Source: Haloarcula rubra
Lineage (GTDB): Archaea; Halobacteriota; Halobacteria; Halobacteriales; Haloarculaceae
Assembly (NCBI RefSeq): GCF_019599465.1
Contig: NZ_RKLR01000003.1
Coordinates: 372,001-436,000 of the forward strand
DNA length: 64,000 bases
Direction: 5' to 3'
The stretch's first letter is position 1. Each line of letters opens with the position of its first letter. A program made the translations under genes and the position numbers. The notes under the pieces were generated by a model. The model searched no databases. It was not told the DNA's origin and saw only the letters and a program-made list of their open reading frames with translations. Below, one piece after another: positions 33,941 to 44,603 of the stretch.

Positions 33941-34888
33941 TCACTGCAAGTACCCCAACTGACGGAGGTGTTCGTCGGTGTCCGTCTCGGCTTCTCGTTC
34001 CGGCGGCACCAGCGTCGGCTCGAACGACTCGGTGTCGGTGGCCGTCGTCTCGGCCCACGGGACGCGCCGGACGGTCGGCACCGGGACGGCGTAGCGGTGC
34101 ATGTACATCCCCCACTCGCCGTAGGCGTTGCCGTGGTCGGCGCTCAGCACCACCCGGTCGGCGTCCAGATTCTCCAGAAGCAGTTCCACTTCGTCCAGCA
34201 CCCAGCGGAGGTTGTCGAGGTACGCGTTCCAGACCTTCTCGTAGTCGCCGCCGTTCTTGAGGTAGTCGAACGGTTCCCCCTCCCACGGTTCCAGCGTCTC
34301 GCGCCCCTCGGCGATGGCCCGTGCCGTGAACGGGTGGTGTGGCTGTTCGTAGTGGACGACGAGGCGTTCCGGGTCCCGCTCTCGGCCGACGCTGATGGCC
34401 CGTTCGGTCACCGGTCGCGGGAGCGTCAGTCCGACCGGCGGCGGGTCGGCGTACTTCCACGGTTGGTCGACGTAGTCGAAGTCCTCCGGGCGGAGGGTCT
34501 GCCAGTCGGTGAACGAGATGCCGCGGCCAGTCTCGGGGAACTCTCGGTTGCGCAGGACTCGCTCCGTGAACGCGTTCGCGGAGACCAGCGCCGTCCCTTC
34601 GACGTCGGAGCGGTAGCGTTCGGTGAACGTCTGGGCGATCCACTCCGCGGACGCGGACCCCACGGACCAGATGGCGTCGACGTCCTCGACGAAGTCGTAC
34701 TCCGGGGCCACCTCTCGGAGTGCGTCCACCCGGCACGTATCGAGGATGACGAGGGCGTCCCAGTCCCGTTCGTAGACGTTCGTCCCGACGGGATACCGGG
34801 ACAGCACCGACATGGCGGCCCCGACGTACTGGTAGTAGGCCCACTTGAGTAGCGATGTCACACGGGGCTCTCGGGAGAGAAGACACAT
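33941..34888 (-). CDS. Alkaline phosphatase/sulfatase superfamily protein
   Basis: A 315-residue protein of the sulfatase-like fold. WDALVILDTCRVDAL near residue 44 gives the first metal ligands, ISFTDWQ lies mid-chain, and VVLSADHGNAYGEWG near 245 has the DHG metal site typical of sulfatases and phosphoglycerol transferases. The first 25 residues are basic and mildly hydrophobic (TSLLKWAYYQYVGAA), common in haloarchaeal members found near surface-polymer genes. An alternative GTG start at 34861 removes nine residues. Whether it acts on sulfate, phosphate or glycan esters is open. It is convergent with coxB. Confidence 0.78.
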   Translation of the reverse strand: MCLLSREPRVTSLLKWAYYQYVGAAMSVLSRYPVGTNVYERDWDALVILDTCRVDALREVAPEYDFVEDVDAIWSVGSASAEWIAQTFTERYRSDVEGTALVSANAFTERVLRNREFPETGRGISFTDWQTLRPEDFDYVDQPWKYADPPPVGLTLPRPVTERAISVGRERDPERLVVHYEQPHHPFTARAIAEGRETLEPWEGEPFDYLKNGGDYEKVWNAYLDNLRWVLDEVELLLENLDADRVVLSADHGNAYGEWGMYMHRYAVPVPTVRRVPWAETTATDTESFEPTLVPPEREAETDTDEHLRQLGYLQ

Positions 34889-35636: not shown

Positions 35637-35793
35637 CTCGAACGACGGGTCGGCGACGCACGAACGAGTGGCCGGACAGGTCGAGGAAGGCGCCGCGAAT
35701 CCGGCCGTGATTGAGTCACGGTTTCGCTTCGCTCGGGCGCGTGCAGCGAAACGACCTGTGGTCTCTCGACTCGACGGGCGCGAGAACCCACGG

Positions 35794-37608
35794 TCAGGCG
35801 AACTGGTCGCTCCGGTACTCCGTCAACACGGGGTCGTCCCTGTGGTACTCGAGGAGCGACGTGAGCGTCAGCACGTGGTACCGCTGTGTCCGTGTGTACG
35901 CCCCGGGGTCGTCGAGGACGGTCCGTTCGAGGCCGTGTCTGTCGAGGACCGCCCGCTGGGTGCGTGTGGCTTGCTCGCGCAGGCAGTCGACGAACGCCGC
36001 GGCGGGCCGGTCGCTGTCGCTACTGATCCCCAAGACGGACTTTATCGCCGGTTTGACGGCCTCGAAGAGGTCCGGATGGCGTTGTAAGGCGTTGTAGAGA
36101 GCGACCCGTGCTTCGTGCCCGACGCTGCTCGGCGGCGCGCCGAAGTTCGCGTTCGGCACGGCCGCCAGTTCGGGCGAAAGCTCCTCTAGAAACGCCGCGT
36201 AGAGCCGGTAGCGCCGTTTCTGGGTATCCGGGATAGACATCGCGTATTCGAAGACGTCGGGGGCGTAGAACGGCGTCGTCGTCCAGAGGTGGTTCCGGTT
36301 CGTGTCCGTCGCCTCGAAGAGCCACGCGAACGCTCGCTGGAACAGTTCGAAGTGGACGAACCGCTTCGAGAGCGACGATTCCGGATAGTCGAGGACTGTC
36401 TCACGGACGTCGGCTCGAATCTCGGCCTCCGAGACGCCGGTCATCGCCTCGACGTCCTCGGCGTCGAACCTCCCCTCGGACTGCAGGACGTACGAGACGA
36501 GGTCCTCGACTGACGCTACCTCGACGACCGGGGAGATGTCGGGGACGAGTTTGTCGCCGCCGTCGCCGGTGTACGACCACGCCGGCCCGTCGGCGTCCGC
36601 CCTGACCCGTCTGAGGAACGGTTGCATGTGTGCGATGCTGAACGAGTCCGTCCCTCCGGTCATGTCTAGGTGGTGGAGCAGGTCCGTCCCGTCCGGACCG
36701 GGCGTCGGCAAGCGGTCCCAGTTCGAACCGACGGCGTCGGTCAGTCGCTGGGCGAGGTCGATGTCCGCGCGAGAATCGTGTTCGAAGTCGCGGGTCATGG
36801 CGCGGTACGACACGTCGCACCGCTCGAACGCCCCGAGCACTGCCCGCGAGTCCAGCCCGCCGCTCAGGAGGACTACGTTCTCACCGGGAGCAGCGGTCGC
36901 CCGGCGCTCGCAGGCGTCCGTGAACCGGCGTGCTAGCTCACGGGCGTTCTCCCTGACGCTGGCGTCCGCGTTCGTCTCCTCGTCGAAGTCGAACTCGTAG
37001 TGTCGTTCGACGGTCAGGGCACCGGTGTCCGTCTCGACTCGGACGTGGTGGCCCTCGGGGAGGCGGCGGAGGCCAGCGTAGAGCGTCCGGTCGGCCAGCG
37101 CGTAACCGAGACGGAGGTACTCGGCGACGGCGAGGCGGTCGAACTCCGTACAGTTCCCGAGACGGGCGAGAATCGGTTTGTTGCGACCGACCAGCGCGAC
37201 ATCGGCGTCGGGCGCGTAGAACAGTGGCAGTTGCCCCAGACGGTCCGGGACGACGGTCATCGTTTCCGCGGCGGCGTCGTGTGCGTAGAACACGAACTCG
37301 CCGTCGAGGCTTCGAAGCCACGTCGGGTCCGTCGGCGCGGCGTCGCCGTCGACGAACCGCCGTTCGAGTTCGGCCCGGAGCGTCGCCTCGTCGCGGTTGT
37401 AGACGACGCCCTCGACGAACACCGAACACTCCCCGAACGTGAAGCGTCTGAACGGATACTCGGGGTACAGGGCCGTCGTCACGCGACAGTTCCCGAGGTC
37501 GTACGAATCGTACTCGTACCGGTCGTCGTAGAGCGCCGGGCGGTGAGCCGCCTCGGTCTCGTCGGTCGCCGGAAGCCGCGCCCCAGCCAACACGTTGATA
37601 CCGGGCAT
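35794..37608 (-). CDS. Asparagine synthetase-like protein lacking the glutaminase cysteine
   Basis: A 604-residue protein with the two-domain layout of AsnB. The N-terminal half follows the Ntn glutaminase fold (SLDGEFVFYAHD, VPDRLGQLPLFYA) but the start is MPGINV, without the catalytic Cys2. The C-terminal half has an intact ATP-pyrophosphatase loop LLSGGLDSRAVLG (near 258) and YTGDGGDK in place of the usual GEGADELF. Such Cys-less relatives, like beta-lactam synthetase, adenylate a carboxylate and form an amide without glutamine. The true product is unknown. An inverted repeat directly before the ATG suggests tight control. Confidence 0.8.
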   Translation of the reverse strand: MPGINVLAGARLPATDETEAAHRPALYDDRYEYDSYDLGNCRVTTALYPEYPFRRFTFGECSVFVEGVVYNRDEATLRAELERRFVDGDAAPTDPTWLRSLDGEFVFYAHDAAAETMTVVPDRLGQLPLFYAPDADVALVGRNKPILARLGNCTEFDRLAVAEYLRLGYALADRTLYAGLRRLPEGHHVRVETDTGALTVERHYEFDFDEETNADASVRENARELARRFTDACERRATAAPGENVVLLSGGLDSRAVLGAFERCDVSYRAMTRDFEHDSRADIDLAQRLTDAVGSNWDRLPTPGPDGTDLLHHLDMTGGTDSFSIAHMQPFLRRVRADADGPAWSYTGDGGDKLVPDISPVVEVASVEDLVSYVLQSEGRFDAEDVEAMTGVSEAEIRADVRETVLDYPESSLSKRFVHFELFQRAFAWLFEATDTNRNHLWTTTPFYAPDVFEYAMSIPDTQKRRYRLYAAFLEELSPELAAVPNANFGAPPSSVGHEARVALYNALQRHPDLFEAVKPAIKSVLGISSDSDRPAAAFVDCLREQATRTQRAVLDRHGLERTVLDDPGAYTRTQRYHVLTLTSLLEYHRDDPVLTEYRSDQFA

Positions 37609-37646
37609 ATACCACAACCGAGTGGTATGCACATCAAAAAGTATAG
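37609..37646 (-). promoter_or_regulatory. Promoter and inverted-repeat operator of the asparagine synthetase-like gene
   Basis: On the minus strand CTATACTTTTT (37636-37646) is a TATA box about 33 bases from the ATG. The inverted repeat ATACCAC-6-GTGGTAT (37609-37628) ends at the base before the start codon and covers the expected transcription start. This is a classical place for a repressor. Confidence 0.6.
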
Positions 37647-37808
37647 AGCGCAATTCGTAGTTTAGCCGGCGTTTACTGTCACAGAGAGTGTAAGGCGCTT
37701 ACCAGATGGTTCCGCTGGCACCGGCCTAGTGAACGGTCGTCGCACCACTGGGGCCCGGTACTGAACCACGCTCGTGTGAGAGAAACAGCCGCCTCGCTGC
37801 GCGTGCTC

Positions 37809-43508: not shown

Positions 43509-44603
43509 ATGCACATCGTCAGTCGTCTCGCGTCCGGATTCGCTGGTGGCGCCCCGGTTGCGAGCGGCCAGTCACGGCTCGAGGTCGACGTTCTCGAGTC
43601 GGTGCGGGAACTGTCTCGCGACGAGTGGAACCACGTCGTCGAGCACGCGAGTCGGGGGAGCGTCTTCCACCGCTACGAGTGGCTCGACGCCGTGGAAGCG
43701 GGGCTCGACCGCACGCCCCGACACCTCGTCGTCAGGAAAGACGACAACCTCGTCGGCCTCTTTCCGAACTTCGTCGCGCCCCTCGACGGGGCAGAGCGGC
43801 CTCCGTTCCGGCGGCTGACCTCGGTCGACCCCGGGTTCGGCGGGCCGGTGATGACCACGGATACGGACGCAGTGCTCTCGGCGCTGCTCGACGCGGTGCC
43901 CGACCTGCTCTCGCCGCGCACTATCGTCCACGAGATACGGGCGCTGGACCCGAGCTATCTCCGGTACAACACGGTCTTGCGGGCCCACGACTACGTGCCG
44001 AACCGACGCCGCTGTCGGTTCCTGCTCCACCTGTCGCAGGGGTACGACGACGTCCTCGCGGGGATGAGTCGGTCACGGCGCCGTGGCATCGAGCGCGGGC
44101 GCGAGGCGGACTGTCTGGAGGTCGTCGAGGAACCGGTGACGTGGGACTCACTCGACCGATACTACCGCACCTACGAGCAGGTGATGGCCCGTGTCGGCAC
44201 CGACCCCTTCCCGTTCCGGTTCTTCGAGGAGTTGCTGGATATGGACGACCGACTGCTCCTCGTGACGGCGCGCGTCGACGGACAGTACGCCGGGGGACTG
44301 CTGGAGATTCTGGACGACGAGCAGTCGTCGGTCCACGGCTACCTCTCGGCCGTTCCGAAACGGTACTTCGAGCACCACACGTCCGAGCGCCTCTACGACT
44401 ACGTCCTCCGCTGGGGCATCGACCACGGGTACGACACCTACGACCTCGGGTCGACGAAGCCCGACTACGAGAACGGCGTGTTCCGGTACAAAGAGGGGTT
44501 CGGCGGGCAGACGATTCCGACGTTGGTGTGGGAGCGGGGCGCCAGTCCCGTCTGGGACGTCTTCGCCACTGGCCGGTCGCTGTATCTCAAGCACGTCGGC
44601 TGA
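43509..44603 (+). CDS. FemAB/GNAT-like peptidyl or aminoacyl transferase
   Basis: A 364-residue double-GNAT protein of the FemAB type. WNHVVEHASRGSVFHRYEWLDAVEAGL near residue 40 and LLEILDDEQSSVHGYLSAVPKRY near 262, then DYVLRWGIDHGYDTYDLGSTKPDYENGVFRYKEGFGG at the end are typical. In bacteria FemAB enzymes add amino acids to peptidoglycan; archaea lack it, so here the acceptor is likely a surface glycan or lipid. The first 15 residues are not conserved and the real start may be later. Confidence 0.8.
   Translation: MHIVSRLASGFAGGAPVASGQSRLEVDVLESVRELSRDEWNHVVEHASRGSVFHRYEWLDAVEAGLDRTPRHLVVRKDDNLVGLFPNFVAPLDGAERPPFRRLTSVDPGFGGPVMTTDTDAVLSALLDAVPDLLSPRTIVHEIRALDPSYLRYNTVLRAHDYVPNRRRCRFLLHLSQGYDDVLAGMSRSRRRGIERGREADCLEVVEEPVTWDSLDRYYRTYEQVMARVGTDPFPFRFFEELLDMDDRLLLVTARVDGQYAGGLLEILDDEQSSVHGYLSAVPKRYFEHHTSERLYDYVLRWGIDHGYDTYDLGSTKPDYENGVFRYKEGFGGQTIPTLVWERGASPVWDVFATGRSLYLKHVG

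Follow-up and report, generated by a model that had tools for sequence, protein, structure and literature searches.

An AsnB-like gene inserted between DUF420 and purF

We analysed a stretch of 64,000 nucleotides from Haloarcula rubra, hereafter the window, in which one gene for an asparagine synthetase (AsnB)-like protein lies between a DUF420 gene and purF. The features of the locus are:

35644..37808, no strand: DUF420-purF intergenic segment, a single-gene insertion present only here (2165 bp, BLAST boundaries)
35794..37608, minus strand: AsnB-like CDS, 604 aa, stop codon within the coordinates, ATG start, MPGINV
About residues 1-210 of the CDS, minus strand: N-terminal domain with a degenerate glutaminase fold
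About residues 218-604 of the CDS, minus strand: PP-ATPase synthetase domain
36547..36570, minus strand: second pyrophosphate/Mg motif TGDGGDKL (residues 347-354), from the family alignment
36841..36864, minus strand: PP-loop SGGLDSRA (residues 249-256), predicted to bind the ATP pyrophosphate, from the family alignment
37603..37608, minus strand: codons 1-2 (Met-Pro), the position of the AsnB catalytic Cys2, from the 35-member alignment
37609..37628, no strand: perfect inverted repeat ATACCAC-AACCGA-GTGGTAT, immediately next to the ATG
37629..37700, minus strand: promoter region with TATA-like CTATACTTTTT about 37 nt upstream of the ATG (MAFFT alignment and inspection)

A preliminary description of this DNA had placed the gene at 35794-37646; the first coordinate stands, but the CDS stops at 37608 and the remainder is promoter. 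Translation of 35794-37608 on the minus strand confirms that the protein starts with MPGINV instead of MCG. The promoter region shares a GACAGTA-AC-CC stretch with that of the homologue in Haloarcula pellucida (MAFFT alignment and inspection).

The inverted repeat, ATACCAC-6-GTGGTAT, had been read as an operator. It is present, directly against the ATG. The window contains 184 perfect repeats with arms of at least 7 and spacers of 3-12, including 19 with a spacer of 6, while base shuffles, which ignore coding bias, give 71-97 and 5-9 respectively. No second exact copy was found in the 4.67-Mb genome, and matches with 2 mismatches occur genome-wide at a frequency near that of a reversed-pattern control. 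The repeat was not found upstream of homologues that are 76 %, 63 % and 55 % identical (L033, L034 and L075), and the L033 promoter lacks it yet shares flanking promoter sequence with the window copy. Because comparable repeats are this frequent, the genome holds a single copy and the relatives' promoters are without it, we rejected the operator reading and judge the repeat, from these sequence comparisons, to be a chance feature.

The DUF420-purF interval measures 108 bp in Haloarcula pellucida compared to 2165 bp in the window, and the copy in H. pellucida lies at another site, 8.6 kb from a flippase gene. The empty site and the different location of that copy together identify the window copy as an orphan single-gene insertion. 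Among the purF loci of other Haloarcula genomes, 27 of 29 have DUF420 near purF and no AsnB-like gene in between, the spacing being 46-112 bp in five and up to about 950 bp in others; the insertion is missing from this site in 29 other Haloarcula genomes. The earlier statement that no biosynthetic cluster accompanies the gene is thus correct for the window copy, which has none because it is an orphan insertion; it fails for the relatives, which are located in surface-glycan clusters.

Two other genes in the window have counterparts near relatives. Just downstream of the AsnB-like gene, 33941-34888 (minus strand) encodes an AlkP/sulfatase-like protein (weak PF00884); in L075 the family member is followed directly by a gene for a 40 % identical protein, although the one in the window seems older than the insertion. 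At a distance of 6 kb, 43509-44600 (plus strand) encodes a FemAB/GNAT-like protein (PF13480, PF04339) whose Pfam domain is also that of VimA-like GNATs in the relatives' glycan loci.

Fold and active-site residues

The proposal of a complete AsnB fold was upheld by several methods. Pfam assigned Asn_synthase (PF00733, 36 bits) and GATase_7 (27 bits) to the 604-aa protein, both above cut-off, and hhalign matched the family to haloarchaeal AsnB with 99.7 % probability over 487 columns. AlphaFold2 run on the family alignment returned a model with a mean pLDDT of 91.8 and a pTM of 0.92. The best solved structures found by Foldseek were the TsnB9 hydroxyamidotransferase, beta-lactam synthetase, human ASNS, E. 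coli AsnB and carbapenam synthetase (CarA), with E values of 1e-14 to 1e-19 and TM scores of 0.49-0.66 on the query. A PDB search with the single sequence found nothing; the family profile gave matches.

In NCBIfam the protein scored 69.5 bits against asn_synth_AEB (TIGR01536, cut-off 267.1), 63 bits against eps_aminotran_1 (TIGR03108, cut-off 816.9), 45.3 bits against the lasso cyclase NF033535 (cut-off 525) and 37 bits against the macrolactam cyclase (cut-off 300). All are below cut-off, which places the protein outside every NCBIfam family matched.

We counted residues in an alignment of 35 full-length family members. At residue 2, 25 members have Pro, 10 have Val and none has Cys, confirming the absence of the glutaminase cysteine; a homologue with Cys2 restored, which would have spoken against the early reading, did not appear among the 35. 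Besides Cys2, the glutaminase residues of AsnB are Arg, Asn, Glu and Asp (PMC3885529). The AsnB N74 column is Glu in all 35 members, E76 is kept as Glu in two, and neither the HRGPD...RLS segment nor the Asp segment of AsnB is retained in the profile-profile alignment.

The ATP side of the protein is preserved. S249, G250, G251, D253, S254 and R255 are invariant (35/35), so that the SGGxDS PP-loop is kept, with DSR where AsnB has DSS/T. The GDGGDK reported earlier in the ATP domain is there, within TGDGGDKL: GDG and D349 occur in all 35 members, D352 and K353 in 33 each, and the complete GDGGDK in 32. Compared to AsnB and ASNS (1ct9, 6gq3), the family has the same two-domain fold, domain order, SGGxDS PP-loop and GxGxD motif, but it has GGDK for ADE and has lost Cys2, the RLS Arg, N74, E76, D98, SLExR and K449.

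The loss of SLExR and of the catalytic Lys K449 comes from the profile-profile alignment of the 35 members. The K449 column holds R, G, Y or Q with no conserved counterpart, although it abuts an alignment gap and its placement rests on the profile alignment. Seven polar residues are invariant and specific to the family (E410, H419, R425, D435, R438, Y448 and K464), K464 being the only invariant Lys near the K449 column. From the lost acceptor-side motifs we infer that aspartate is probably not the substrate, and from the preserved ATP motifs that the enzyme probably adenylates. With K449 and SLExR gone, AsnB-type amidation chemistry cannot be assumed, and the apparent absence of the catalytic Lys is the chief argument against it.

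The same losses would fit a protein of AsnB fold that has no catalytic activity, or a regulatory one, and that acts as a scaffold during glycan assembly while binding ATP or a nucleotide sugar. We take this as a serious rival, although a fairly improbable one: the PP-loop and GDG are invariant in all 35 members, the seven polar residues are fixed, and the gene is under purifying selection. The dN/dS is 0.22 against the 76 % identical homologue and 0.16-0.29 for other pairs, values for which dS is partly saturated. Invariant ATP motifs, an invariant polar set and purifying selection are what one would expect of an active site that still works but differs from that of AsnB.

Distribution and phylogeny of the family

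Of 392 Halobacteriales genomes examined with profile searches, 51 contain relatives, which are full length with few exceptions. In a phylum-wide sample of 393 genomes every strong match was within Halobacteriales, and those in other orders were weak and covered part of the protein (E 1e-26 to 1e-33); the Cys-less family has so far been seen only in Halobacteriales. Its distribution in Haloarcula is patchy, with 3 of 32 genomes including the source genome: two of the 31 others carry a full-length homologue (76 % and 63 % identical), both at other genomic sites. The nearest named homologue, from Haloarcula pellucida, was the sole relative returned by the scan of genome contigs.

The AsnB-like family forms one clade with 100/100 support in a tree of 42 rows, and the gene is a member of this monophyletic family. 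Another 100/100 branch parts the Cys-bearing AsnBs from all Cys-less archaeal rows; the latter all carry DSR after SGG and include several groups outside this family, and as the tree is unrooted it fits a single loss of the Cys as well as multiple losses. The absence of Cys2, the DSR in the PP-loop and the separation from AsnB in the tree place the protein in what we define here as the Cys-less archaeal SGGxDSR clade.

The tree also bears on whether the protein is an ordinary asparagine synthetase using free ammonia, a reading that has the fold in its favour. We consider it highly improbable given the separate clade, the loss of SLExR and of the catalytic Lys, the asn_synth_AEB score and the occurrence in 3 of 32 Haloarcula genomes. 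The preliminary view of the protein as something other than an ordinary asparagine synthetase is therefore sustained.

No viral relatives were found in IMG/VR, and a viral origin of the gene was rejected on that result. Family members on haloarchaeal plasmids are named 'asparagine synthase-related protein' or 'hypothetical protein' by NCBI, and the open-access literature, to which our search was confined, yielded no described haloarchaeal family of this kind.

Other AsnB-like or Asn_synthase proteins were also seen. Families of the phylum outside Halobacteriales (L068-L071) have AsnB-like proteins of the form 'MPG/MTG...SGGLDSR', a wider group for which we found no description. In the source genome, in which the window lies on contig 31, contig 34 carries a second, very divergent Cys-less AsnB-like protein with SGGYDSR at about 41 kb (L002/L152), along with beta-helix proteins and flippases at 56-96 kb, and contig 35 carries at 171 kb (L148/L149) an Asn_synthase protein of 363 aa or longer that has SGGVDSALL and lacks an N-terminal MCG. 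An MCG-type AsnB is absent from the source-genome PF00733 matches that were read, which are all but two on contig 22.

Surface-glycan loci and a proposed function

We examined about 20 kb around 45 family members, the window included; the ORFs of relatives were predicted by composition score, with approximate starts, and then clustered. A flippase gene lies within about 10 kb in 22 of the 45 loci, compared to about 1.4 expected from 161 listed PF01943 matches in 25 of these genomes (6.4 per genome), although common descent makes the 45 loci partly dependent on one another. A Tat-signal parallel beta-helix protein is encoded right beside the family gene in 25 loci, in varying orientation, and such genes number just 3-4 per genome in the four genomes tested. 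These beta-helix proteins (e.g. L080:7302-8786) match Pfam weakly or not at all and have a conserved, repeated C-terminal domain; they are possibly glycan lyases or epimerases, or coat proteins.

At least one glycan-type gene is present in 34 of the 45 loci, and the 11 loci with no glycan marker gene include the window. A type I phosphodiesterase-like AlkP protein is found in 16 loci, a family-4 glycosyltransferase in seven and a nucleotide-sugar dehydrogenase within 10 kb in three, uronate-making genes being present in few. Annotated plasmids with family members agree, carrying flippase, glycosyltransferase, polysaccharide deacetylase, GNAT and alkaline phosphatase family genes. Outside the window copy, the family for the most part sits in surface-glycan loci.

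The run on the Haloprofundus halobius plasmid is acyltransferase, DegT aminotransferase, Gfo/Idh oxidoreductase and nucleotide-sugar dehydrogenase (WbpD-E-B-A-like genes), then deacetylase, GNAT, flippase, two glycosyltransferases, a DUF354 gene and the AsnB-like gene. For steps of this kind NCBIfam gave 343 bits for the nucleotide-sugar dehydrogenase, over its cut-off, and 218 bits for the UDP-GlcNAc 3-dehydrogenase and 71 bits (5e-20) for the VimE deacetylase, both under theirs; these scores lend support to a uronic-acid route. A uronic-acid glycan locus surrounds the homologues L077, L078 and L081/L166 but not the window copy.

The Wbp/Vim pathway of Porphyromonas gingivalis yields a linking sugar of the 2,3-diamino-uronic type, whose acid is converted to the uronamide by the AsnB homologue WbpS (PGN_1234); the related WbqG is required for the uronamide in E. 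coli O121 (PMC7468200). Like these uronamide-forming amidotransferases, the family combines an AsnB fold with a surface-glycan locus, and some of its loci have the same set of WbpA/B/E/D-like genes, flippase and VimE/VimA-like genes. It differs from the WbpS type in its eps_aminotran_1 score, in the absence of glutaminase residues, in its acceptor-side residues and in being archaeal.

The neighbourhoods also weigh on a small-molecule or RiPP cyclase of the beta-lactam synthetase or lasso-cyclase type. Beta-lactam synthetase likewise lacks Cys2, and Cys2-less relatives such as this enzyme take amines other than ammonia. Beta-lactam and carbapenam synthetases (1mbz, 1q15) share the AsnB fold with the family but are 14-16 % identical to it in structural alignment, and they use a catalytic Tyr-Glu dyad and Lys443. 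In the family, the column aligned with AsnB K449 holds no conserved Lys. No clavam or carbapenem genes were seen near the family, a search of 12 genomes gave no PF13471 gene of the lasso B type in its vicinity, and the neighbours are glycan genes. With lasso and macrolactam scores far under their cut-offs as well, the lasso-cyclase analogy drawn earlier falls and we rejected the lasso and beta-lactam types, leaving a cyclase of this kind very unlikely. TsnB9 (7ylz), the best structural match (TM 0.66/0.68), is 14 % identical and is a natural-product enzyme from a different context.

Given the neighbour set in common with Wbp/Vim, our best guess for the family is an amide step like that one, and the loss of the glutaminase site means that the nitrogen would come from ammonia or an amine. 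Our leading reading, a tentative one, is that the protein may be an ATP-dependent, glutamine-independent amide ligase with a surface-glycan sugar acid as its substrate; both the sugar acid and the nitrogen donor are inferred. Besides the lost Lys and SLExR, the scarcity of uronate-making genes within 10 kb and the 11 loci free of glycan markers count against it. The C-terminal PP-ATPase domain would bind ATP through SGGLDSR and GDGGD and adenylate a sugar acid at its carboxylate. This sugar acid, in a surface-glycan precursor, would most probably be a uronic acid and perhaps a 2,3-diamino-uronic acid. Free ammonia or an amino compound would then displace AMP to form the amide, while the N-terminal domain would keep its glutaminase fold solely as a scaffold. 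The glycan-amide role is surer for the family than for the orphan window copy.

An amide ligase in the same loci could instead have another target: it might attach an amino acid or amino sugar to the glycan, or act on a surface-protein anchor precursor. Vim-like GNAT and deacetylase genes lie nearby in some loci, an archaetidylserine decarboxylase of a protein-sorting system lies near two plasmid copies, and the use of non-ammonia amines by beta-lactam synthetase offers a precedent. The sorting-system link is limited to few loci, and we regard this version as unlikely though distinctly possible. More speculatively, and with a rather slim chance, haloarchaea may have a Wbp/Vim 'linking sugar' pathway of their own. 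Its AsnB-fold ligase, working without glutamine, would amidate a diamino-uronic sugar or join an amine to it; this sugar would decorate surface proteins or anchor them, and the Tat-exported beta-helix protein encoded next door would be a partner or client.

Returning to the sugar-acid amide ligase, the enzyme more likely amidates a sugar acid of the surface coat than makes asparagine. AsnB-fold enzymes that do without glutamine have gained new amide chemistry repeatedly, and a coherent family so far called 'asparagine synthase-related' or 'hypothetical' would thereby receive a specific role in the archaeal surface coat. If this is true, amidated uronic acids, or amide-linked groups, are expected in haloarchaeal glycans, and an enzyme class would be added to a type of pathway hitherto known from bacteria.
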